A stretch of 64,000 nucleotides of DNA from Phycisphaerales bacterium. Lineage in GTDB: Bacteria > Planctomycetota > Phycisphaerae > UBA1845. The notes beneath the pieces were generated by a model. The model was given only the letters and a program-made list of their open reading frames with translations. It had not been told where the DNA came from and ran no database searches. The stretch's first letter is position 1, and each line of letters starts with the position of its first letter. The stretch lies in the NCBI GenBank assembly GCA_020852275.1, contig JADZBE010000011.1, positions 1-64,000 on the forward strand. The letters are read 5' to 3'. The position numbers and the translations under genes are program-made. This document shows, piece after piece, positions 51,854 to 63,858 of this stretch.

Positions 51854-52600
51854 ATGATCTATGCCGCGATGACTTTCTGGCTGCTGACCATCGTGCTGAT
51901 GGCCTGGGGCGTGCATCGGCTGTGGGCGGGGATGATCAAGCCCAAGGTGTTCAACACGCTGCTGCTGCCCGGGACGCTGGTGGCGCAGATCGGGCATGTG
52001 CTGGGTCTGCTGGTGACCGGCGCGACGATCCGCGACACAACGCTTATCAAGGACGACGACTCAGGCGAGCCGGAGACGACGCAGGATCCCCAGCCGCGAA
52101 TTCCCGTGATCGGCCCTGTCATCATCGGCATGTTGCCGCTGGTGGCGTGCATCGCCGGGATCTTCGCCGCGACGCACTACCTCGGCGATCCCGCGACGCT
52201 GACGCTGGCTTCGGTGGTCAAGGGCGAGCTTCCGCGCACCATGCCGCAGGCCTGGCAGCTTCTGCGGGATCTGGTCACGCTGGTTGAATCGGCGGTCAAC
52301 GCGATGACGACGGGCGACGCCGGGAGGTGGCAGTTTTGGCTGTTTGGGTACCTGATCGTGTGCCTGGCGATTCGGATGGCGCCGTTTCCGGGCTACCTGC
52401 GCGGATCGCTGGGGGCGATCGTCGTGCTGGGGATCGGGGCGGCGCTGGTGACGTCGCTGCTGGACGTGGCGCATCCGCGCGTGCAGGAGGGGTGGGTGGT
52501 TCTGAACCTCATCGTGGCGGCGCTGCTGCTGCTCCTGCTGGCGAGCCTGATCATTCGTGGGGGAGTGGGGCTGGTGCGCGTGCTGCGGTCCGGCGAGTAG
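51854..52600 (+). CDS. Hypothetical integral membrane protein
   Basis: 248 residues; ATG at 51854 after AGGGAGGAC. About five membrane helices (FWLLTIVLMAWGVHRLW, VIGPVIIGMLPLVACIAGIF, FWLFGYLIVCLAIRM, LGAIVVLGIGAALVTSLL, LNLIVAALLLLLLASLII). A polar loop at 70-85 (KDDDSGEPETTQDPQP) precedes the second helix. No family recognised. Confidence 0.6.
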   Translation: MIYAAMTFWLLTIVLMAWGVHRLWAGMIKPKVFNTLLLPGTLVAQIGHVLGLLVTGATIRDTTLIKDDDSGEPETTQDPQPRIPVIGPVIIGMLPLVACIAGIFAATHYLGDPATLTLASVVKGELPRTMPQAWQLLRDLVTLVESAVNAMTTGDAGRWQFWLFGYLIVCLAIRMAPFPGYLRGSLGAIVVLGIGAALVTSLLDVAHPRVQEGWVVLNLIVAALLLLLLASLIIRGGVGLVRVLRSGE

Positions 52601-52754
52601 ATGTGAAGGAGGCAGCGGGAGGCAGGCGGCTCGCAAAGGTGGTCGCGCGGGGTGGCGGAAACCCTGAATGAGATCAAGGGTTCGATCCGATATCTCGCAA
52701 TGGGGAGGGCGAGAATGACGCGGCAGGGGGCCTGTCGCGCGCGGAGGCGAATCC

Positions 52755-53429
52755 ATGCGGGAACTGCGAGGATGGGCTGTGTTGGCGGGGACGATGAGCT
52801 TGGGGGTCGCATGTGCTGACATCGCTGCGGCGGATGTGATCGCGGCGAGCACGTTCGATGAGGACTCGGAGGGCTGGGGCATCTTCTTTCGGGGAAATCG
52901 CTTTTCGCCGCAGTACATCCGCGACGGAGGAAACCCCGGGGGGTATGTCTCCGGCGACGACAGCCGCATCGGGCAGCGGTGGTTCTGGGAGGCGCCGGCG
53001 GACTTTCTTGGAGATATTTCCGTCGCGTATGGCCATGAGCTGAGTTTCGATTTGATCTCCATTCCCGGGAAGGGCTTGCCGGATTCGCTGCCGCTGACGC
53101 AACAGGACGTGGTGCTGACGAGGGGCGATACGACGTTGACGTACAACGACCCGCAGGCGCCGGGGCGGGCGTGGACGGAGTTTCACGTCGGGCTGGGCGA
53201 AGCGGGGTGGCTCAATGAGACGAGCGGGCTGCCGGCCACGCGGGAGGACATGGAGTTTGTGCTCGGCGGGCTGGAGCAATTGATGCTGCGCGGCGACTAC
53301 ACGGGCGGAGATCAGGTGGGGGGGCTGGACAATGTCGTGCTGACGCCGGAACCGGCCACGGGGATGCTGGCGCTGCTGGGGATTGGCGCTTTGATGCGGA
53401 GATCGCGCAAGGGCGGATTGGGCGTTTGA
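52755..53429 (+). CDS. PEP-CTERM protein with laminin-B-like domain
   Basis: 224 residues; ATG at 52755 after GGAGG. Signal peptide (RGWAVLAGTMSLGVACADIA). The body starts FDEDSEGWGIFFRGN and contains DGGNPGGYVSGDD, then FWEAPADFLGDISVAYG, the laminin B (domain IV) pattern seen in planctomycete and proteobacterial exported proteins. The C-terminal sorting signal is LTPEPATGMLALLGIGALMR followed by RSRK. Surface or matrix protein. The promoter of the sulfur operon overlaps its last codons. Confidence 0.78.
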   Translation: MRELRGWAVLAGTMSLGVACADIAAADVIAASTFDEDSEGWGIFFRGNRFSPQYIRDGGNPGGYVSGDDSRIGQRWFWEAPADFLGDISVAYGHELSFDLISIPGKGLPDSLPLTQQDVVLTRGDTTLTYNDPQAPGRAWTEFHVGLGEAGWLNETSGLPATREDMEFVLGGLEQLMLRGDYTGGDQVGGLDNVVLTPEPATGMLALLGIGALMRRSRKGGLGV

Positions 53430-53454
53430 CAAGCGGTCCAGCGTGGGGTAGCAT
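53426..53454 (+). promoter_or_regulatory. Promoter of the sulfur/sirohaem operon
   Basis: Perfect TTGACA (53426-53431), a 17-bp spacer and TAGCAT (53449-53454). The predicted transcript start at about 53461 is only about 4 nt before the ATG of the polycysteine leader. Confidence 0.8.
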
Positions 53455-53464
53455 GTTCAACGTA

Positions 53465-53602
53465 ATGGGTCGGGCAGTTCACATTCCGTCGAGCCGAAGC
53501 ATTCGGACACAACGTCCGGTAGTGTCGTGCCGCGCGTGGATGGGGGCCTGCATGTGTTGTTGCTGCTGTTGTTCGCCGAACAACAGGGGGAGGTCATCCT
53601 AG
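53465..53602 (+). CDS. Polycysteine leader peptide, candidate Cys-responsive attenuator
   Basis: A 45-codon frame from ATG 53465 to TAG 53600-53602. The N-terminus is MGRAVHIPSSRSIRT; then come SCRAWMGACM and six consecutive Cys codons (53555-53572, TGT TGT TGC TGC TGT TGT), then SPNNRGRSS. Eight Cys in 45 residues is not expected of ordinary coding. In-frame ATGs at 53540 and 53552 would give shorter versions. The promoter implies a leaderless mRNA starting with the first ATG. The Cys codons form the 5' arm of a hairpin (CTGTTGTTC / GAACAACAG, 53566-53586). Ribosomes short of Cys-tRNA would stall there. Leaderless polycysteine reading frames acting as attenuators are known in mycobacteria. 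Confidence 0.75.
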   Translation: MGRAVHIPSSRSIRTQRPVVSCRAWMGACMCCCCCCSPNNRGRSS

Positions 53603-53640
53603 CGGCAGCACGGACCGGACAGGTGGAGCGAGTGCGACAA

Positions 53641-53670
53641 GCCCGCGGGATGCGTCCCGCGGGCTTTTTT
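53641..53670 (+). terminator. Intrinsic terminator in the cysH leader (attenuator)
   Basis: Perfect 10-bp stem GCCCGCGGGA / TCCCGCGGGC with loop TGCG, then TTTTTT (53665-53670). It sits 38 bp after the leader peptide stop and 29 bp before the cysH ATG, inside the predicted transcript. No full antiterminator pairing is obvious by eye. Confidence 0.92.
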
Positions 53671-53699
53671 GTTGCGCCGCATCGAGAGAGGAGCGGGGC

Positions 53700-54542
53700 A
53701 TGAGGGACTCGACCATTCGTGAGGCGGCCGCGGCGGACGGGGGACCGGTGCGCGCCGACGCCGGTCTGCCCCGCGCGGTTGATCCCCAGACACGCGCGGG
53801 CGGAGAGGCGGAACCCGCGTCGGTGCGTTTGCGGCTTGCGAAGCAGGCGGAAGCAGCGGAACCGATCGGCGAGACGAGTTCGACGGAGGAATTGATCGCC
53901 TGGTCCTTGGAGCGATTCCGCGATGCGACGATGGTGATGACCACTTCGTTCGGCATGGAGGGGTGCGCGCTGATCGACATGGTGGCGCGGCGCGGGCGTC
54001 CGCTGACCGTCGTATACCTCGACACGATGTTCTTCTTTCGGGAGACGTACGAGCTGCGCGACGAGATGGCGCGACGCTATCCGCACCTTCGCTTTGAAAA
54101 CCGGGGCACGTCGCTGACGCCGGATGAGCAGGAGCGGCAGTTCGGCCCGCAGCTTTGGAAGACGAATCCGACGCTTTGCTGCCGTATCCGCAAGGTGGAC
54201 CCGATGGTCGCGGCGCTGCGCGGCGTGGATGTCTGGATGACGGGGCTGATGCGGTCGCAGTCGGCGACACGCGCGAACATCAGCACGATCGACTGGGATT
54301 GGAAGTATCAACTTATTAAATTCAATCCGCTGGCGTTCTGGACGCGGGAGCGCGTGTGGGAATACGTGCGCGAGAACCGCGTGCCGTACAACAAGCTCCA
54401 CGAGCAAGGCTACCCCACCGTCGGCTGCACACACTGCACCCAACCGGTCGAGGGCGTCAAGCTCGGGGAATACACGCGGGCCGGGCGCTGGACGGATTTT
54501 GAGAAGACGGAATGCGGACTGCACGGGGGAGCGGGAATATGA
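53700..54542 (+). CDS. cysH: Assimilatory adenylyl-sulfate (APS/PAPS) reductase, [4Fe-4S] type
   Basis: 280 residues; ATG at 53700 after GAGAGGAG. Reduces activated sulfate to sulfite in the cytosol with thioredoxin or glutaredoxin. The PP-loop-like core has MVMTTSFGMEGCALIDM and VVYLDTMFFFRETYEL. The iron-sulfur cysteines are LCCRIRKVDP and GCTHCTQPV (CC...CxxC), which favours the APS-specific form, and the catalytic Cys is in ECGLHGG. The N-terminal 50 residues are an Ala/Glu-rich extension. First enzyme gene behind the attenuator. Confidence 0.93.
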   Translation: MRDSTIREAAAADGGPVRADAGLPRAVDPQTRAGGEAEPASVRLRLAKQAEAAEPIGETSSTEELIAWSLERFRDATMVMTTSFGMEGCALIDMVARRGRPLTVVYLDTMFFFRETYELRDEMARRYPHLRFENRGTSLTPDEQERQFGPQLWKTNPTLCCRIRKVDPMVAALRGVDVWMTGLMRSQSATRANISTIDWDWKYQLIKFNPLAFWTRERVWEYVRENRVPYNKLHEQGYPTVGCTHCTQPVEGVKLGEYTRAGRWTDFEKTECGLHGGAGI

Positions 54543-54552
54543 CAATTGTAAA

Positions 54553-54675
54553 TGGCGAATGACGAATGGCGAATAGCGAATGCTGAATGCAGAAGGCAGA
54601 ATGGCAAATGCAGAAGGCGATCTGCTCAGGGTTGCGATCAGCATTCAGCATTCAGCATTCAGCATTTTGCATTTT
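54553..54675. repeat. Dispersed GAATGCTGAATGC / GCATTCAGC inverted repeat between cysH and sir
   Basis: Degenerate GAATGGCGAATGACGAATGG-type units (54553-54612) face GCATTCAGCATTCAGCATTC (54640-54671) and can pair as a long hairpin in the operon mRNA. The right arm ends just before the sir ribosome site. Confidence 0.75.
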
Positions 54676-54686
54676 TGGAGCGATTG

Positions 54687-56429
54687 ATGTCGGGGGAATC
54701 TGACAAGACGGAATCCAAAGTCGAGGCCGCCAAGCGCGGCAGCCGGCACCTGCGCGGGACGATCGAGGAGACGCTGCGCAGTGATGCGGCAGGCTTCGGC
54801 GAATCGGACGGCGGCTTGCTGAAGTTTCACGGCATTTACCAGCAGGACGACCGCGACGTTCGCCAGGAGCGGCGCAAGGCCGGGTTGGGTGAGAAGACCA
54901 TGTTCATGGTTCGGCTGGCCATTCCCGGAGGCGGGCTGAGTGCGGATCAATATCTGAAGCTTGATGAGCTTGCGGACCGGCACGAGTTTCAATCGTTGCG
55001 CGTGACGACGCGGCAGGGTCTGCAGTTTCACGGCGTGCTGAAGGGCAATCTTAAGGAAACCGTTGGCTCGGTGAACAAGGCGTTGCTGACGACGATCTCC
55101 GCCTGTGGCGACGTCGAGCGCAACGTGATGACCTGTCCCGCGCCGCTGGGCGACCGGGATCATGTCCGTCTGCACGCATTGGCCGGGGAAATTGCGCGCG
55201 ACCTGCGGCCTGCGTCGCGCGCCTATTATGAAATCTGGCTTGATGAAGAGAAGGTCGTCTCCACCGAAAACGAAGAGCCATTTTATGGGGAGCAATACCT
55301 TCCGCGCAAGTTCAAGACGGGCATAGCGCTGGCGTCGGACAATTGCATTGACGTCTATTCGTATGACTGTGGTCTAGTGGGCATTACGGACGGGCCTGAG
55401 ATCCGAGGGTTCAACCTGGTTGTGGCCGGCGGGCTGGGACTGACGCACAACAAGCCGGACACGTTTGCGGCGCTGGCGCAGACGGTGGGATTCATTCAGG
55501 CGGAAAACGCGGTCCAGGCGGTGCGCGCCGTGTGCTCTGTGTTTCGCGATTACGGCAACCGCGTGGACCGGAGGCACGCGCGGCTGAAATACCTGTTGGA
55601 CCAGTGGGGTTTGGAGAAGTTCCGCGAGGAGTACGTGCGCCGCATTCCGTTCGAACTGGCGCCTGCGGTGGAGCTTCCCCGACCCGGATTTGAGGATCAC
55701 CTCGGTCCGCACCGGCAGAGCGACGGTCGGATGTTTTACGGCATTTACATCGAGAATGGCCGGATCATCGACCGCGACAACTGCCGAATGAAGTCGGCGC
55801 TGCGCACGATCATGCGCGAACACCGCCCGCGGATACGACTGACGCCGCACCAGAACATGCTCCTGTTGGATCTGACGGACGCACAGGTCAAGGGAATTGA
55901 AGCGACCTTGCGCGACCACGGCGTGCGGCTTGCGCAGGAATTGTCGGCCGCGCGGCGGTATTCCATGGCGTGTCCGGCGCTGCCCACGTGCGGGCTGTCG
56001 ATGGCGGAGTCGGAGCGGATCATGCCGTCGGTGGTGGACCGGTTCGAGGAGGAGCTGGAGCGGCTGGGGCTGCGCGACGCGCCGATCACGCTGCGCATGA
56101 CGGGCTGCCCGAACGGTTGTTCCCGACCCTACACGGCGGACATCGCGTTCGTGGGCCGCCGCCCTGACGTTTATCACGTGTACGTGGGGGGGGGGCTGCC
56201 GGGGACGCGGATGGCGGACCTGTATGCGGCGGACGTGGCGACGGGAGATATTGTGAGCGTGCTGCGGCCCCTGCTGGAGGCGTGGGCGGCGTGGGGCGGG
56301 GGCGGGGAGTCGTTGGGCGATTTCTACCAGCGGGTAGTGGCGCGTTCGACCGTGCGCCGGACGATCACCGGCAAGGAGGAGGCGACTGGAGCGCTGGTGC
56401 AGCTTGGGATAGAGCGGATGAGCGGGTGA
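54687..56429 (+). CDS. Sulfite reductase haemoprotein (ferredoxin or NADPH-type, sirohaem)
   Basis: 580 residues from the ATG at 54687 with GGAG 7 nt upstream; the in-frame extension to 54552 reads through a repeat and is rejected. Six-electron reduction of sulfite to sulfide. The N-terminal half has LRVTTRQGLQFHGVLKGNL and CPAPLGDRDHVR. The [4Fe-4S]-sirohaem cysteines are ACPALPTCGLSMAESE (C-x5-C) and MTGCPNGCSRPY (C-x3-C). Nitrite reductase activity cannot be excluded, but placement after cysH favours sulfite. The operon also makes its sirohaem. Confidence 0.92.
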   Translation: MSGESDKTESKVEAAKRGSRHLRGTIEETLRSDAAGFGESDGGLLKFHGIYQQDDRDVRQERRKAGLGEKTMFMVRLAIPGGGLSADQYLKLDELADRHEFQSLRVTTRQGLQFHGVLKGNLKETVGSVNKALLTTISACGDVERNVMTCPAPLGDRDHVRLHALAGEIARDLRPASRAYYEIWLDEEKVVSTENEEPFYGEQYLPRKFKTGIALASDNCIDVYSYDCGLVGITDGPEIRGFNLVVAGGLGLTHNKPDTFAALAQTVGFIQAENAVQAVRAVCSVFRDYGNRVDRRHARLKYLLDQWGLEKFREEYVRRIPFELAPAVELPRPGFEDHLGPHRQSDGRMFYGIYIENGRIIDRDNCRMKSALRTIMREHRPRIRLTPHQNMLLLDLTDAQVKGIEATLRDHGVRLAQELSAARRYSMACPALPTCGLSMAESERIMPSVVDRFEEELERLGLRDAPITLRMTGCPNGCSRPYTADIAFVGRRPDVYHVYVGGGLPGTRMADLYAADVATGDIVSVLRPLLEAWAAWGGGGESLGDFYQRVVARSTVRRTITGKEEATGALVQLGIERMSG

Positions 56430-56439
56430 AACTCGCAAG

Positions 56440-56556
56440 CACAGGTTGGAAACCTGTGCTCCATCCGCCGGTTGGAAACCGGTGCCACACGACACCCATG
56501 AGCAACACAGGTTGAGAACCTGTGCTGCACACTCCGGTTGAGCACCGATGCCACAG
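56440..56556 (+). repeat. Cluster of four short palindromic dispersed repeats
   Basis: CACAGGTTGGAAACCTGTG, CCGGTTGGAAACCGG, CACAGGTTGAGAACCTGTG and a decayed CCGGTTGAGCACCGATG in a row between sir and hemA. Same family as at 187-278. Confidence 0.9.
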
Positions 56557-56572
56557 CGGAAGGGAAGGCCGG

Positions 56573-57694
56573 TTGAACAGGCTGTTGTATGTTGGATTTA
56601 CGCACCGCACCGCGCCGTTGAGCGTGCGCGAGCGGATAATGCCCGCGCCTGAGTGCTTGGAGGCCTACCGGCAGCGTGTGCATTTGATTGCGGAAGAATC
56701 GGCGGTGCTGCGCACCTGCGGACGGTTTGAGACTTTTGTCGTGTCAGCGCCGGTGGGGCGCTGTTCGACCCCAGGGGCGGCGGCCGCGCATGCAAGCGCC
56801 GAGAGCGTGCTTGCGGTGTTGTCTGCGGTCACGGGGCGATGTGTGGCGGCGCTGGGCAAGCACGCCAGCGTCATGGCGGGGGATGAAGCGGCGGCGCACC
56901 TGCTTCGCGTGGCGGGCGGGCTGGATTCGCCGATTCCCGGGGAAGATCACGTGCTCGGCCAGGTGCGGGAGTGTTTCGATCGTGCGAGGGCGGAGGGCTC
57001 CGCGGGGGCGATGCTCTCCGCACTGTTCCGCACGGCGATACGTACCGGGCGGCGTGTGCGGAGCGAGACGGGGATTCAACGCGTCGCAGCGTCGTTTACC
57101 GATGCGGCGGCGGAGGTGTTGCGAGAGCGGCGGGCGCGGGGCGGAGGCGGGCGGCTGCTGGTGATTGGCAGTGGAAAGATGGCGGCGGAAATCGCGGAGC
57201 GGGCCGGCGCGTGCGGGTACGGCGACATCGTGATCGCGGCGCGCCACGCGTCTCGCGCGACGGAGCTTGCACGTCGCGTTCACGGCTGGGTGGTGGGTTT
57301 CGAAGACATGGTGAGCGAGCTGGCGAGGGCGGATGCCGTGGTGGCGTGCACCTCGGCATCGACACCCGTGCTGACGGCCCGGACGTTCGGCGCTGCGCTG
57401 GCGAGTGTGTGCAAAGGAGGCTCGCGGCGGAACATCCTCCTGATCGACCTGGGCATGCCGCGAAACGTGGAGGCGGACGTGGCGCGGCTGCCCGGCGTCG
57501 AGCTTCATGATCTGGACGGACTGGCGCGGCGGCAGGGGACCGGCGCGGAGCGCGCGGGCGAGGCGGCGCTGCGCCATGCGGAGCGGATCGTGCAGGAGGA
57601 GCTCAAGCGGTTTCAGCGCTGGCTTGCGGCGCGCGAGCGATTCAACATGCAGGGAATGCAGGCCTCCACGAGGTTGTGGAGTCGCACCGGATGA
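56573..57694 (+). CDS. hemA: Glutamyl-tRNA reductase
   Basis: 373 residues from the TTG at 56573 (MNRLLYVGFTHRTAPLSVRE) with GGAAGG upstream. Reduces glutamyl-tRNA to glutamate-1-semialdehyde with NADPH, the first committed tetrapyrrole step. The catalytic Cys is in LRTCGRFETF; the family normally has CNR, here CGR. GEDHVLGQVRECF and the NADPH loop LLVIGSGKMAAEIAERAG are present. The C-terminal dimerisation helix is reduced. The stop overlaps the next gene (ATGA). Confidence 0.92.
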   Translation: MNRLLYVGFTHRTAPLSVRERIMPAPECLEAYRQRVHLIAEESAVLRTCGRFETFVVSAPVGRCSTPGAAAAHASAESVLAVLSAVTGRCVAALGKHASVMAGDEAAAHLLRVAGGLDSPIPGEDHVLGQVRECFDRARAEGSAGAMLSALFRTAIRTGRRVRSETGIQRVAASFTDAAAEVLRERRARGGGGRLLVIGSGKMAAEIAERAGACGYGDIVIAARHASRATELARRVHGWVVGFEDMVSELARADAVVACTSASTPVLTARTFGAALASVCKGGSRRNILLIDLGMPRNVEADVARLPGVELHDLDGLARRQGTGAERAGEAALRHAERIVQEELKRFQRWLAARERFNMQGMQASTRLWSRTG

Positions 57695-59586
57695 AACGGA
57701 CCTCGCTGATCCTGGCGGCGCACGGGGGGGGGGACGGCTCTGCGGCGAATCTGCATATCGAGGCCTGTGCGAGGCAGCTTGCGGCGACAGGGAGGTTTGA
57801 CGAGGTTTTCGCGGCGGTGCGGCTGGGATCGCCCTCGTGGCAGGAGGCGCTGGAGCTGACCGAGGGAGACGAGGTGGTCGTCGTCCCGTTCATGACCAGC
57901 GAGGGGTATTTCTGCCGCGTGGCATTGCCGGATGCGCTGGGCGCTTCCGCCCTCAAGGCGGGGCGAAAGGTGCGGATCACGCCGCCGGTGGGCACGCATC
58001 CTGGCGTGACAGCGATCGCGGCGGCGCGCTTGAGTGACCTGGTCGACCGGTACGCGCTCGATCCGGAGAAGACCGTTGCCATCCTCTGCGGGCACGGAAC
58101 TCCGCGTCATCCCGAGAGCCGTCGCGCGGCGGTGAACTTGGCGCTGCGGCTGGCGCGGCGGCGGCTTTGCGTCTCCTGCATTCCTGCATACCTGGAGGAA
58201 GACCTGCGCATCGAGGACGCGCCCCGCCGGCTGCGCGGTTATCACCTTGTGGTGCTGCCGTTCTTGATCGGGGGCGCGTTTCATGCGATGCACGACATTC
58301 CGCGACGGCTGGGCCTGGCGCCGGCGGACGCCGCGGAAGGGGAGGCGGGAGGCGTTGGGGGCGGGGTGAACTTCCCGCTGGCTCGTCGGGATCAGGATCG
58401 GTGGATGCTCTGCGACGACGCGCTTGGACGGCAGGCGGGATTCGTCGAGGTGATTCTCGAACGGGCGTGCGACGCGGTCGAAGCCGGGGGAGGCGAGGAC
58501 CTTGAAGGCGGTGTGACGGGCTGCAAACGTCCATCCGATCACCGGCTGGAAAGCCGGTGCCCCAGAGAGTCAGGTTCTCGCGCCGCGGCTCGTCGATCCG
58601 CGAGCGCTTCCGCGTGGCTGGAATCCGGTCCTCGGCGGCTGCGACTGGGCACGCGTGCCAGCGCCTTGGCATTGTGGCAGGCGAACCACGCCGCCATGCT
58701 TCTGCGCGAGGCCGGCGCGGACGTGGAGGTGGTCGAGCTGAGCACGTCGGGCGATCGCGACCTGTCGCGCGCGATTGCGGAGCTGCCGGGCGACGCGCCA
58801 TTTACGGATGATCTGGACGACGCGCTGCGGCGGGGCGAGATCGACGTGGCGGTTCACGCGCTGAAGGACGTGCCGCTGAATCTCCCTGCCGATCTGGAAC
58901 TGGCGGCGGTGCTGCCGCGCGGCGAGGTGACGGAGTCTCTCGTGTCGCGCGACGGGCTGCGGCTGCAGGAGCTGCCGGCCGGAGCACGTGTCGGCACGAG
59001 CAGTCCGCGCCGGCGGGCGCAGCTTCTGGCCGTGCGTGCGGACTTGGAGCCGGCGATCCTGCGCGGGCCGGTCGATGCGCGGGTCCGTCAGGTGCGGGAG
59101 GGGCGGTTTGACGCGGCGATTCTGGCGAGTGCCGGCTTGATGAGACTCGGTCTTGAGCACGAGATCGCTGAACGCCTGTCGCTGGATGAGTTTCTTCCCG
59201 CGCCGGGCCAGGGCGCACTGGTGATCGCGGTGCGAAAGGGGGATGATGCCCTGGCGGCGAGGGTGCGTGCGCTGGATGACGCGGCGACGCGGGCGGCCGT
59301 GACGGTGGAGTTGGAGTTTCTCCGAAGCTTTGACGGGGAGGATGGCGTTGTGGCCGCTGCGTGGGCGATGTGCGCGACGCAGAGTGGTTGCCGCGAGGCG
59401 TTGCTGCTGCGAGCGCGATTGCTGACACTTGGCGGACTGCGCCTGTGGGACGGCTGCGTGAAAGGCGCGGACTCATGTGCCGTGGCGCGTTCGGCGACGC
59501 GGCGAGCACGGCGGGCGGTCGCGTCGGCGCAGGGCGCGGGGCTGGTGCAAGAGGTGGCGGCGTCGCGGGAAGTGGCGTCGGTGTGA
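57691..59586 (+). CDS. hemC: Fusion: sirohydrochlorin chelatase (CbiX-like) - hydroxymethylbilane synthase (HemC)
   Basis: 631 residues from the ATG at 57691. Residues 1-260: two CbiX-type halves with LILAAHGGGDGS and VAILCGHGTPRHPESR, for metal insertion into sirohydrochlorin. Residues 270-315: a linker encoded partly by a palindromic dispersed repeat (58535-58562). Residues 316-631: HemC with VAVHALKDVPLNLP, VGTSSPRRRAQLLAVR and LPAPGQGALVIAVR. The dipyrromethane-cofactor Cys (normally Gly-Gly-Cys after ERxFLxxL) is replaced: SFDGEDGVVA, so the position is Asp551. LRGPVDARVRQ also departs from the usual RGNVxTRLxK. HemC activity is therefore uncertain. GTGA overlap with cobA-hemD follows. 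Confidence 0.85.
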   Translation: MKRTSLILAAHGGGDGSAANLHIEACARQLAATGRFDEVFAAVRLGSPSWQEALELTEGDEVVVVPFMTSEGYFCRVALPDALGASALKAGRKVRITPPVGTHPGVTAIAAARLSDLVDRYALDPEKTVAILCGHGTPRHPESRRAAVNLALRLARRRLCVSCIPAYLEEDLRIEDAPRRLRGYHLVVLPFLIGGAFHAMHDIPRRLGLAPADAAEGEAGGVGGGVNFPLARRDQDRWMLCDDALGRQAGFVEVILERACDAVEAGGGEDLEGGVTGCKRPSDHRLESRCPRESGSRAAARRSASASAWLESGPRRLRLGTRASALALWQANHAAMLLREAGADVEVVELSTSGDRDLSRAIAELPGDAPFTDDLDDALRRGEIDVAVHALKDVPLNLPADLELAAVLPRGEVTESLVSRDGLRLQELPAGARVGTSSPRRRAQLLAVRADLEPAILRGPVDARVRQVREGRFDAAILASAGLMRLGLEHEIAERLSLDEFLPAPGQGALVIAVRKGDDALAARVRALDDAATRAAVTVELEFLRSFDGEDGVVAAAWAMCATQSGCREALLLRARLLTLGGLRLWDGCVKGADSCAVARSATRRARRAVASAQGAGLVQEVAASREVASV

Positions 59587-61193
59587 AGGTCAGCGTCGTC
59601 GCGGGAGATGGTGTGTTGAAGGGACGCAGGGGCAGGGTGGCGCTGGTCGGCGCGGGTCCGGGGGATCCGGGGCTGATCACGTTGAAAGGTCTGCGGCGGT
59701 TGCGTCGCGCGGATGTCGTAGTGTACGACCGGCTGATCGGTCCACGGCTGATCGGGCTGGCGCGCGCGGACGCGGAGCGCATCGACGTGGGCAAGGCGCC
59801 GGGCGAACTGCACTGGGAGCAGGAGCAGATCAACGCGCTGATCGTTGAGCGGGCGCAGCGCGGGCAGCGCGTCGTGCGGCTGAAAGGCGGCGACCCGTTC
59901 ATGTTCGGCCGCGGCGGGGAGGAGCTGGCCGCCTGCGCGGATGCGGGCGTGCTCTGCGAAGTCATACCCGGCGTGACCAGCGCGCTGGCGGCGCCGGAGA
60001 GCATCGGTGTCAGCGTGACGCACCGGCCGTACTCGGACTCCGTCGCGATTATCACGGGCCGCAGCGCGGGCAGCGCGGGACCGCCGGGGCACGATTACGC
60101 GGCGCTGGCGAAGATCGACGCGCTGGTCGTGCTGATGGGGCGCGCCTCGATCCGCGACATCGCGCGGGAACTGATCCGCCACGGACGCGATCCGCGAACT
60201 CCCGTGGCCGCAATCGAATCCGCGACGACGACTCGTCAGCGGCACGTGCTCGGCGCCCTCAACGACATCGCCGATCGTCTCGACGAATTCCGCGTGGAAG
60301 CGCCGGTGGTGATCGTCGCAGGCGAGGTTGCGCGGATGGCGGAGCGGTTCGCGCCGCTGCTGGATCAAACCTCGCGGAAAGGTGGAAAGCGCAGGCCGCT
60401 TCAGGGTCGGCGCGTGGCGGTGACGCGCGCGGCTTCTTCCTCGGACGAGTTGTTCCGGCTGCTGCGGCGGGCGGGCGCGGAGGTGGTTCCTTGTCCGCTG
60501 ATCCGCACGAGTTTTCCCGCGTCGGCCGAAGGCGCGGACCGGGCGCTGGGCCGGCTCGCGGAGTTCGACGGGCTGGCGTTCACGTCGATGCACGGGGTCG
60601 ATGGGTTCTGGCGGCGGCTGGAACACGCGGGCCTGGACACGCGATCGCTTTCGCGGTTGAAGATCGGGGCGATTGGTCCGGGCACGGCCTCGGCGCTGGC
60701 GAGCCGGGGCGTCCGCGCGGACGTGATGCCGGAGAAGTACAACGGGCAAAGCCTGGCGGAGGCGATGCTGCGCGCGGCGGAGGTCGGCGGGTGTCCGACG
60801 AGCACAACTGCGGGCATGGGCGGGCCGCGCATACTATGCCCTCGCGGGAACCTCGCGCGTACGGAGCTGGAGGCGATCCTCAAGAAGGGCGGGGCGCACG
60901 TCGAGGTGATCGAGGTTTATCACACGGATCTGGTCGAACCGCCTCCCTCGGCGGTCGCTGAGCTGCGGCGCGGCGTGGATGCGATTCTGTTCTGCAGCCC
61001 CTCGGCGGTGCGGCAGTTTTCCACGCTGCAGCTTCCGCGCGGGCGGGCCCTGCTGGGGTGTCTGGGACCGACGACGGGTCGGATGCTGACCGAATGCGAT
61101 TTGCCCCCGGACCTCGTGCCGGATAGCTCGGACGTGCATTCGCTGGTGAGCGAGCTGGTCAAGCGACTGACCCCTTCGGAGGCGAGAGCGTGA
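59583..61193 (+). CDS. Fusion: uroporphyrinogen-III C-methyltransferase (CobA) - uroporphyrinogen-III synthase (HemD)
   Basis: 536 residues from the GTG at 59583, overlapping the hemC stop. Residues 15-265: SUMT methylase (VALVGAGPGDPGLITLKGL; VVRLKGGDPFMFGRGGEEL; VEAPVVIVAGEVARM), which makes precorrin-2 for sirohaem. Residues 275-530: HemD (GRRVAVTRAASSSDELF; GLAFTSMHGVDGF; AILFCSPSAVRQF), which cyclises hydroxymethylbilane with ring inversion. The fusion channels uroporphyrinogen III towards sirohaem while leaving it available for haem. Known fusion type in other bacteria. Confidence 0.94.
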   Translation: MKVSVVAGDGVLKGRRGRVALVGAGPGDPGLITLKGLRRLRRADVVVYDRLIGPRLIGLARADAERIDVGKAPGELHWEQEQINALIVERAQRGQRVVRLKGGDPFMFGRGGEELAACADAGVLCEVIPGVTSALAAPESIGVSVTHRPYSDSVAIITGRSAGSAGPPGHDYAALAKIDALVVLMGRASIRDIARELIRHGRDPRTPVAAIESATTTRQRHVLGALNDIADRLDEFRVEAPVVIVAGEVARMAERFAPLLDQTSRKGGKRRPLQGRRVAVTRAASSSDELFRLLRRAGAEVVPCPLIRTSFPASAEGADRALGRLAEFDGLAFTSMHGVDGFWRRLEHAGLDTRSLSRLKIGAIGPGTASALASRGVRADVMPEKYNGQSLAEAMLRAAEVGGCPTSTTAGMGGPRILCPRGNLARTELEAILKKGGAHVEVIEVYHTDLVEPPPSAVAELRRGVDAILFCSPSAVRQFSTLQLPRGRALLGCLGPTTGRMLTECDLPPDLVPDSSDVHSLVSELVKRLTPSEARA

Positions 61194-62173
61194 GACAGTT
61201 CCCACACACGCGCCTGCGGAGGCTGCGGGCCGTCCCGGCGCTGCGCGAGCTGGTGCTCGAAACGCGGCTGTCCGCGCGGGATTTCATCTATCCGATCTTC
61301 GTCGTCGAGCAGCCCGAATCGGCGGGCGCGGTAGCGTCGATGCCCGGCGTGGAGCGGCAGACGCTGGATTCACTGCCCGGGATGATCGAGCGCGTCGCGG
61401 AGCGGCGCATTTCGGCGGTGATGCTGTTCGGCATTCCCAGGCGGAAGGACGCGGGCGCGTCGCAGGCGTGGGCGGCGGAGGGCGTGATCGTCCGCGCGAT
61501 CGAACGCGCCCGGCGGGCGGCGGGGACGGCGGTCGCGGTCATCGCCGACGTGTGCCTGTGCGAGTACACCGACCATGGACATTGCGGCATTCTTCGGCAG
61601 GAGCGCATCGACAATGATGCGACGCTGGAGATTCTCGCCAAGGCGTCGGCGGCCTACGCGCAGGCGGGCGCGGACGTGGTCGCGCCGAGCGGCATGATGG
61701 ACGGAATGGTCGGCGCGATTCGCGGGGCGCTGGATGCGGCGGGTCGCACGGACACTTCCATCCTCTCTTACGCGGTGAAGTACGCGTCGGCGTTCTACGG
61801 TCCATTCCGGGACGCGGCGGAGTGTGCGCCGAAGCACGGCGATCGGCGAAGCCATCAGATGGATCCGGGCAACGCGCGCGAGGCGCTGGCGGAGGTGGAG
61901 CTGGACATCGCGGAGGGCGCGGACATGGTCATGGTCAAGCCGGCGATGCCATATCTGGACGTGGTGCGGTGCGTGCGGGAGGCGCACTCTTCCGTGCCGA
62001 TCGCCGCATATCAGGTCAGCGGCGAGTACAGCATGATCAAGGCGGCATCGGCGAAAGGCTGGATCGACGAGCGCCGCGCAGCGATGGAGGCGCTGACGGG
62101 GATCAAGCGCGCGGGGGCGGATGCGATCCTCACGTACTACGCCCTCGAAGCGGCGGAGTGGTTGATCGCGTAG
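61190..62173 (+). CDS. hemB: Porphobilinogen synthase
   Basis: 327 residues from the GTG at 61190, overlapping the previous stop (GTGA). Condenses two 5-aminolevulinate molecules. The zinc-cysteine segment is VIADVCLCEYTDHGHCG (zinc-dependent type). The Schiff-base lysines are in LSYAVKYASAFYGPFR and MVMVKPAMPYLDVV. GDRRSHQMDPGNAREAL is also typical. The N-terminus starts directly with RLRRLRAVPALREL. Last gene of the operon. Confidence 0.95.
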   Translation: MRQFPHTRLRRLRAVPALRELVLETRLSARDFIYPIFVVEQPESAGAVASMPGVERQTLDSLPGMIERVAERRISAVMLFGIPRRKDAGASQAWAAEGVIVRAIERARRAAGTAVAVIADVCLCEYTDHGHCGILRQERIDNDATLEILAKASAAYAQAGADVVAPSGMMDGMVGAIRGALDAAGRTDTSILSYAVKYASAFYGPFRDAAECAPKHGDRRSHQMDPGNAREALAEVELDIAEGADMVMVKPAMPYLDVVRCVREAHSSVPIAAYQVSGEYSMIKAASAKGWIDERRAAMEALTGIKRAGADAILTYYALEAAEWLIA

Positions 62174-62226
62174 GTTCGGTTCGCCCAAGCAGGATGTGGC
62201 AGAACTCAGAACCGGTCATTGACACC

Positions 62227-62300
62227 GTCACCCCCGCGCAGCCGGCGGCGCAGAGGCTGCTGCCAGGAGGCTGGATTCCCGCCTGCGCGGGAATGACGCG
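62227..62300 (+). repeat. Composite dispersed repeat, copy 9 (partial)
   Basis: GTCACCCCCGCGCAGCCGGC, then GGATTCCCGCCTGCGCGGGA and ATGACGCG, between the converging hemB and symporter genes. No separate intrinsic terminator is seen; this repeat may serve as one. Confidence 0.75.
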
Positions 62301-62322
62301 CTTCCCCCTTCGCCAGGAAGTG

Positions 62323-63858
62323 TTACCGGCGCGGCTTTGTATGGAAGCAGGCGCCGAGGGCGAAGGTCCAGGTTGTGCCGATGATGATCCACCACGGCCA
62401 GACGACGTGGTCCAGCACCGGCGGGAAGAAGAGGTCGCGCCATTCGGGGGGGATGTGAAGCCGTGCGACTCCATCCGGGGAGCGGGAAAACTGACCGAAG
62501 CGGATCCACAAGAGAACGGCGACCGAAGAGAGCATGATGTACAGGTTCAGGCGGTCGCTGCCGCGCGTCCTCGTCAGAACGCCGAGCAGAAAAACGCCGA
62601 GCATGGCCCCGAACACCATGCCCACCCATTGCAGGGCTTCCCACAGGAGCGCCTTGGACGTGAGGTTGAAGATGAACGCCACCGTCGCCAGCGCGGCGCC
62701 GAAGAGGAACGTCGAAATGCGGGCGACGCGCAAGTGGTGCTGCTCGGACGCCTTCGCGCCGAACCACGGACGGTAGATGTCGGTCACCGCGCTGGACGAC
62801 AACGCGCCGATGGCCGACGCCAGACTGGACATCGAAGCCGCGAGGATCGCCGTGACGAGTAGTCCTCGAAGCCCGGAGTTGAAAGGAAGCGCGTGGGCAA
62901 TGAAGAAAGGAAAGATCCGATCGGGCTTGAGATCCGCCGGGGGCTGCGGAACCGCGCCGCCTCTGTAATACAGAAACATCATCGTGCCGATCGAAAGAAA
63001 CAGCACGACGATGGGGAAGCCGGCGAAGAGGTTGAAGATCAGCGAACGTTGGCTTTCGCGCACGTTCTTACAGGTGAGCATTCGCTGCGTGAGGTCCTGG
63101 TCCGTGCCCAGCGCGGCCATGTTGGTGAGCGTGGAGCTGACCAGCAGGAGCCAGAAGAGTTTCTCCGCGGGGACGCCTTCACCGAGCTTCCAGGTGAACG
63201 TGTGCAGCTTGCCCGCGTTCCAGGCGGCTTGCACGTTCTCGTTCCACCCGCCGGGCGTCTGATGCAGCAGGAAGAGCAGCGCGGCCAGCCCGCCGATTAC
63301 GAACGTGCTCGCTTGGAGCAGGTCCGTCCAGAGGATCGCCTTGATGCCGCCGTGCATGGTGTAGGCCGTGCAGAGCACCAGCGTCCCCAGCACGACGATT
63401 TCCAGCCGCCAGTGGAAGACCTCCGACACGGCAAGGGAAGCGGCGAGCAGGCGGATGCCGCTGCCGACCAGCCGGGAAGACATGAAACACAGCGAGGCGG
63501 TGGTCTGCGTGCGCGGTCCGAACCGCTGCCCCAGATACTGATACACCGTGGTCACGGAGCCGCCGTAGAAGGCCGGCAGCAGCAGGAACACGATGAGCCA
63601 TCGACCGACGAACGCGCCGGCGTAGAGCTGCAGGTAGTTCCAGTCGCCGCGGTAGGCGTCGGCCGGCACGCCGACGATGGTCAGGGCGCTGACCTCCGTG
63701 GCGATGATGGAGATGCCGGCGAGCAGCCAGTGCTGCCGCCGCCCGCCGAGGAAGAAGTCCTTCGTGTCGCGCTCGTGGCGCCCCGCCCAGAAGCCCACGC
63801 CGAGCACGAGGATGAAGTAGCCCGTGAAGACCAGCCAGTCGAGCGGCCCGAAGACCAT
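62323..63858 (-). CDS. Sodium:solute symporter (SSS family)
   Basis: 511 residues, about 13 membrane helices. SSS hallmarks: TKDFFLGGRRQHWLLAGISI, ATEVSALTIVGVPADAYRGD, then LLVTAILAASMSSLASAIG (the conserved small-residue helix of the sodium site) and NSGLRGLL. A sugar or organic-acid substrate is likely but not determined. Unlike the symporter at 1001-2896, it has no long polar insert and no DUF3311 partner. The window's last 140 bp (63859-64000) show no further gene. Confidence 0.88.
   Translation of the reverse strand: MVFGPLDWLVFTGYFILVLGVGFWAGRHERDTKDFFLGGRRQHWLLAGISIIATEVSALTIVGVPADAYRGDWNYLQLYAGAFVGRWLIVFLLLPAFYGGSVTTVYQYLGQRFGPRTQTTASLCFMSSRLVGSGIRLLAASLAVSEVFHWRLEIVVLGTLVLCTAYTMHGGIKAILWTDLLQASTFVIGGLAALLFLLHQTPGGWNENVQAAWNAGKLHTFTWKLGEGVPAEKLFWLLLVSSTLTNMAALGTDQDLTQRMLTCKNVRESQRSLIFNLFAGFPIVVLFLSIGTMMFLYYRGGAVPQPPADLKPDRIFPFFIAHALPFNSGLRGLLVTAILAASMSSLASAIGALSSSAVTDIYRPWFGAKASEQHHLRVARISTFLFGAALATVAFIFNLTSKALLWEALQWVGMVFGAMLGVFLLGVLTRTRGSDRLNLYIMLSSVAVLLWIRFGQFSRSPDGVARLHIPPEWRDLFFPPVLDHVVWPWWIIIGTTWTFALGACFHTKPRR

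Follow-up and report, generated by a model that had tools for sequence, protein, structure and literature searches.

Does the short cysteine-rich reading frame ahead of the cysH operon of a planctomycete act as an attenuator responding to cysteine, and at which step would it do so? The question was raised by a stretch of 64,000 nt (hereafter the window), which comprises positions 1 to 64,000 of the forward strand of contig JADZBE010000011.1 in assembly GCA_020852275.1 of a Phycisphaerales bacterium (GTDB lineage Bacteria; Planctomycetota; Phycisphaerae; UBA1845). A preliminary description, made without any database search, had proposed a leaderless polycysteine leader peptide with a terminator, working on the same principle as in mycobacteria. 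The mycobacterial cases act on translation, so the type of output is not given by analogy.

Promoter, leader frame and operon of the window

As outlined in Table 1, the leader comprises a promoter, a short frame with its Cys codons, a terminator and the ribosome-binding site of cysH. Read directly from the sequence, TTGACA (53426–53431) and TAGCAT (53449–53454) are separated by a 17-bp spacer and adjoin the end of the upstream gene at 53429. The ATG at 53465 follows 10 nt past the −10 box and opens coding codons up to 53599, closed by TAG at 53600–53602; the encoded peptide is MGRAVHIPSSRSIRTQRPVVSCRAWMGACMCCCCCCSPNNRGRSS with eight Cys in total. The terminator arms are 53639–53650 and 53655–53666, with T6 at 53665–53670, and the cysH start at 53700 is preceded by GAGAGGAG. 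In a consensus scan of 52500–62500 the leader promoter was the only sigma-70-like match on the + strand, which does not exclude other promoters, and the leader terminator was the strongest terminator match in the same interval. The promoter, the ATG, the 45-codon frame, the eight Cys with six in a row, the terminator and the cysH ribosome site of the preliminary description are all confirmed in place. Its 10-bp terminator hairpin has to be corrected to 12 bp, its presence and the T6 being upheld, and “leaderless” is refined to near-leaderless. On the strength of the promoter alone, transcription is inferred to start at the ATG or a few bases ahead of it.

No curated Rfam covariance model matched at the leader, and the whole window gave only two tRNA matches at gathering scores. 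Among the runs of four TGY codons that were examined in the window's genome, only the leader's run belongs to a short frame with a good promoter ahead of it. The inspection was not exhaustive; within this limit no second Cys leader was found, leaving one copy, and the idea of a genome-wide cysteine network was dropped.

Table 1 Features of the leader and its operon in the window.
Feature	Position	Strand	Basis
Promoter TTGACA-17-TAGCAT	53426..53454	+	sequence; promoter scan; equivalent in nearly all relatives
Near-leaderless leader frame, 45 codons + stop TAG, 8 Cys	53465..53602	+	sequence; in-frame ATG in relatives
Six consecutive Cys codons (putative sensor)	53555..53572	+	sequence; Cys cluster conserved upstream of cysH
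Antiterminator strand CAUCCU-A-GCGG with stop codon, A53601 bulged	53595..53605	+	pairs with 53643-53652; covariation
Intrinsic terminator, 12-bp stem, loop TGCG, T6	53639..53670	+	motif scan; covariation in relatives
Part of terminator 5' arm and loop, captured by antiterminator	53643..53652	+	pairing and covariation
cysH ribosome-binding site	53684..53693	+	sequence; no species-specific leader pairing in relatives
cysH, (phospho)adenylyl-sulfate reductase	53700..54542	+	NF002537, PF01507
sir, sulfite reductase haemoprotein	54552..56429	+	NF010029, PF01077
hemA, glutamyl-tRNA reductase	56522..57694	+	profile search
CbiX (sirB-like) fused to hemC, porphobilinogen deaminase	57676..59586	+	PF01903, PF01379
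cobA (uroporphyrinogen methylase) fused to hemD	59361..61193	+	PF00590, PF02602
hemB, delta-aminolevulinic acid dehydratase	61190..62173	+	PF00490

Sirohaem and haem genes had been suggested to stand under the same control as cysH. The operon cysH-sir-hemA-sirB/hemC-cobA/hemD-hemB is supported, while co-control is inferred. Its hemA is the only PF05201 match of the genome, and in many relatives cysH (often with sir) remains linked to hemA, sirB/hemC and cobA/hemD. Two details of the gene models may be recorded here. The reading frames of the fused CbiX-hemC and cobA-hemD genes (57676–61193) overlap at 59361–59586, and the listed start region of sir (54552–54690) holds the repeated short words SIQHSAF and NAECRRQNGKCRR; the true sir start may lie further in, near MSGESDKTESKV.

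Conservation and distribution of the leader

Homologues of cysH were collected from relatives and their upstream regions compared. Nearly all close homologues are preceded by a short frame with a Cys cluster. Four Cys within nine codons were found in 98% of the real leaders of the relatives vs 3.4% of dinucleotide-shuffled leaders, and a cluster of six Cys in 56% vs none. The number and placing of the Cys codons differ among leaders, and the peptide is otherwise variable except for its very end. TGT is favoured in the leaders (146 TGT, 78 TGC) relative to cysH of the relatives (46 TGT, 145 TGC) with an odds ratio of 5.9. The preliminary description had proposed such a search upstream of cysH and had accepted that a Cys run unconserved in relatives would refute it; the search was run, the Cys-rich short frames proved conserved, and the refutation did not occur. 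Its core claim, a polycysteine leader with an intrinsic terminator ahead of a sulfur/haem operon, is thus supported, in the near-leaderless form, by conservation across dozens of genomes.

A promoter equivalent to that of the window is present in nearly all relatives. For the frame test the best promoter upstream of the Cys codons was picked blind to any ATG. Of 39 occurrences of an ATG 5–12 nt past the −10 box, 38 shared the frame of the Cys codons and one did not, and in 34 of 39 loci the frame from that ATG was open. Therefore, in most species translation would begin right at the inferred RNA 5' end or no more than a few bases from it. The pattern TTGACN-17-TANNNT with an ATG after 6–10 nt occurs 19 times in the whole genome of the window's organism vs 2 times for the reversed pattern; near-leaderless transcripts thus seem to be common in this planctomycete, an inference from sequence alone. 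A near-leaderless 15-codon frame, MIRAIAAFRVLLMGM, is also located just upstream of a metH-like gene of the same genome (L225, G000:C7:367585).

A covariance model was built from the leader and searched in the sampled genomes. Of the 35 sampled genomes from the window's order that possess a close cysH, 33 gave a match directly ahead of this gene. As to the two exceptions, in G013 cysH is cut by a contig end and the model match lies at the end of another contig, and in G057 the Cys-rich frame comes without a recognised terminator. Outside the order the model gave weak matches, mostly to the terminator only; those full-length matches there that were inspected (in G091, G163, G363 and G289) proved not to be Cys leaders. 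Most of the more distant cysH upstream regions hold no Cys frame.

Some further loci deserve mention in their own right. Another family of the class has some members with short Cys-rich frames before a more distant cysH and without an obvious terminator, among them MKTTAHRMTTTTNRHLCACCCCCGTCC and MELDQMFTDSTAKSCCSICCGVCM (L205 in G279 and L245 in G455); these might represent a translational version of the same sensor. In G456 (L244) the gene immediately ahead of cysH encodes a MoaD/ThiS/CysO-like sulfur carrier and ends with ...IIPAIAGGCCC, three Cys codons following the GG, while its relative in G257 (L246) ends with ...GG; the Cys tail may be a Cys sensor added to a sulfur-carrier gene. Finally, a related cysH behind a leader and terminator of this kind occurs on two contigs labelled Acidobacteria (L061, L062), for which mislabelled bins or transfer are possible.

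Two mutually exclusive pairings of the leader RNA

The preliminary description had overlooked a complementarity between the terminator and the stretch formed by the frame 3' end, the stop codon and the CGGC after it. For the window this amounts to 10 base pairs, 53595–53600 with 53647–53652 and 53602–53605 with 53643–53646. The terminator is present in nearly all loci of the relatives and begins 23–53 nt past the stop codon; the consensus of the frame end and the bases past the stop, GGAGGANCGNCC-TGA-CGGC, is mirrored by that of the terminator, GGCCCGCAGGANNGTTCCTGCGGGC. The duplex of each leader's own partners has a mean of −29.4 kcal/mol vs −24.5 kcal/mol for partners swapped between species (z = −9.5, 0 of 20,000 permutations), and either arm alone vs swapped partners gives z = −5.0 and −4.9. 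No pairing signal with the terminator was obtained for the control segments, spacer and first part of the frame (z = +1.3 and −0.6). When each of the 14 cysH clusters was represented by a single locus, the antiterminator retained a median z of −5.1. In the alignment, 26 double changes were counted at antiterminator pairs vs 10.5 in shuffled data and 38 at terminator pairs vs 12.2, neither being reached in any of 500 shuffles. For single base pairs the cysH tree offered too few independent contrasts to reach significance alone. The antiterminator pairing does not end at the stop codon but continues beyond it, and in some species the two are out of register. Evidently, the computational data show that the frame end pairs with the terminator in a species-specific, covarying manner and that this pairing and the terminator stem exclude each other. 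As a separate observation, in one sub-group of leaders (L048, L050, L051, L064) Met codons come after only a few Cys codons (CMMI), and GCCTTGA in the stop region has its match, TCAAGGC, in the terminator base, an apparent rewiring of the same switch.

The Cys codons had also been described as one arm of a 9-bp hairpin. This hairpin, 53566–53586 (CTGTTGTTC-GCC-GAACAACAG), is present in the window, and individual leaders do fold pairs between Cys codons and frame end. In the relatives, no signal of species-specific pairing of the Cys codons with the sequence after them, up to the 3' end of the frame, was observed (z = −0.5); the hairpin is therefore probably lineage-specific. It does not hold as a conserved feature. 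The same value lends no support to a conserved protector (1:2) hairpin between Cys codons and frame end, the element that would give termination in the absence of translation. The conserved switch is formed by the frame 3' end and the terminator.

From the last Cys codon of the cluster to the end of the stop codon, most leaders span about 24–30 nt. With an assumed footprint, a ribosome decoding the Cys codons would leave the antiterminator free and one at the stop codon would cover it. When folding was restricted to the RNA ahead of the stalled ribosome up to the terminator loop, the pairing of the terminator 5' arm with the antiterminator had a mean of 0.81 vs 0.30 with the intervening sequence shuffled (0.85 vs 0.33 for the window) and exceeded 0.5 in 39 of 41 loci. 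That the pairing drops to zero once the ribosome stands at the stop codon follows largely from the footprint that was assumed. Folding with and without a ribosome, another check proposed earlier, does not separate the states at equilibrium: in full-length equilibrium folding the terminator wins in most states, whether or not a ribosome is present. Consequently, the switch must be kinetic and decided during RNA synthesis. Classical attenuators take their decision while the RNA is being made.

Proposed mechanism, rival explanations and known systems

In the proposed mechanism transcription would begin at or a few bases before the ATG, and ribosomes would load at the 5' end of the RNA. With ample Cys-tRNA the ribosome would reach the stop codon and cover the antiterminator strand, whereupon the terminator (its stem at 53639–53666) would form and transcription would end before cysH. 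With Cys-tRNA in short supply the ribosome is predicted to stall on the Cys codons, leaving 53595–53605 free to capture the emerging 5' arm of the terminator; with the terminator blocked, RNA polymerase would read into cysH, sir and the haem/sirohaem genes. The analysis shows the elements of an attenuator and their conservation, two covarying pairings that exclude each other, and no comparable pairing at the cysH ribosome site. That the leader is a complete, conserved cysteine-responsive transcription attenuator is very likely in our judgement, on computational evidence only, with the start site, translation, stalling at Cys codons and the response to cysteine being inferred. In a bolder reading, Planctomycetota evolved leaderless polycysteine sensing on their own, or rewired it, into a true transcription attenuator which places the whole tetrapyrrole pathway of these bacteria under cysteine supply. 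The latter part is based on the genome's only hemA lying in the operon and on the lack of a further sigma-70-like promoter match; on balance we lean slightly against this reading.

Translational attenuation as in mycobacteria would require that the leader sequesters the cysH ribosome site and that stalling of a ribosome on the Cys codons releases this site. It shares the sensor, a near-leaderless polycysteine frame upstream of sulfur genes, and has been reported for mycobacteria (PMC9031893, PMC13236596). However, species-specific complementarity with the cysH ribosome site was seen neither for the Cys tract nor for the frame end (z = 0.3 and −0.1). Moreover, leader frame and cysH are separated by a conserved intrinsic terminator, whose distance to cysH varies from about 8 to 261 nt (best-guess start codons). 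This rival is very unlikely. Since the terminator is the pairing partner of the leader and the cysH ribosome site is not, termination of transcription is taken as the output; the earlier “same principle” accordingly holds for the sensor only.

Granting a transcription attenuator, its signal could be other than plain cysteine supply, for example oxidative or metal damage to the charging of Cys-tRNA, or arrest by the polycysteine nascent chain. The RNA data are silent on the nature of the signal, metals or oxidants could by inference react with a Cys-rich nascent chain, and the haem genes of the operon would suit such a link. Against this stands the function of the operon, sulfate-to-cysteine assimilation in all loci, and against arrest the variable number and placing of Cys in an otherwise unconserved peptide, unlike sequence-specific arrest peptides; we regard this alternative as highly improbable, too. 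Virtually ruled out is a frame that encodes a functional small Cys-rich peptide, with a terminator merely halting read-through from the upstream gene. The end of that gene next to the promoter speaks for it, but the upstream genes are unrelated from locus to locus while the leader persists. Therefore the terminator belongs to the leader, and its assignment to the upstream gene was rejected. Furthermore, the conserved frame end is explained by RNA pairing that runs past the stop, sometimes out of register, and the remainder of the peptide is variable. The cysteine-responsive transcription attenuator remains the preferred reading.

According to a survey of 2010, leader-peptide systems had been known from Proteobacteria and Actinobacteria only, to which it added Firmicutes (PMC2965389). 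The preliminary description knew of none in this phylum, and likewise no planctomycete leader-peptide attenuator was found in the open-access literature searched, which is weak evidence of absence. New here would be a cysteine attenuator with all its parts, terminator and covarying antiterminator included, that is conserved within one order of the Planctomycetota. It joins near-leaderless initiation to transcription attenuation outside Actinobacteria and, given the inferred cysteine response, would link cysteine supply to sirohaem and haem synthesis. The exact 10-base-pair model of the window makes a reporter test feasible, and the covariance model would permit automatic annotation of the leader.

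Leaderless Cys-rich frames in mycobacteria were called the possible first cysteine-directed attenuation in bacteria in 2015 (Shell 2015, PMC4633059), and the polycysteine frames were later reported to act through translation (Canestrari 2020, via PMC9031893 and PMC13236596). Both systems have clustered Cys codons near the end of a frame, at or next to the RNA 5' end and upstream of sulfur-assimilation genes. In mycobacteria, however, the output is translational, no terminator was found and several such loci exist, whereas the window's genome yielded only one, with a conserved terminator and a covarying antiterminator; the pairing with the downstream ribosome site, the step that defines the mycobacterial mechanism, is absent here. 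The Cys leader peptides predicted in Actinobacteria upstream of cys operons or cbs (Seliverstov 2005, PMC1262725) likewise carry Cys runs near the stop codon but, unlike the window's leader, lack conserved terminator hairpins, and their mode of regulation was unknown. Leaderless trpL, leuL2 and ilvL with terminators have been reported for S. lividans (PMC8079986). None of these Streptomyces leaders nor the classical trp/his/ilv attenuators senses cysteine. Compared with the classical systems, the antiterminator strand of the window's leader contains the stop codon, and no conserved protector hairpin was found. In common with them are a leader peptide rich in the end-product amino acid and the exclusive antiterminator and terminator; thereby, with the ribosome footprint assumed, the sequence-level features of trp-type attenuators are met: enrichment of end-product codons, an intrinsic terminator and an exclusive antiterminator hidden by a ribosome at the stop codon.
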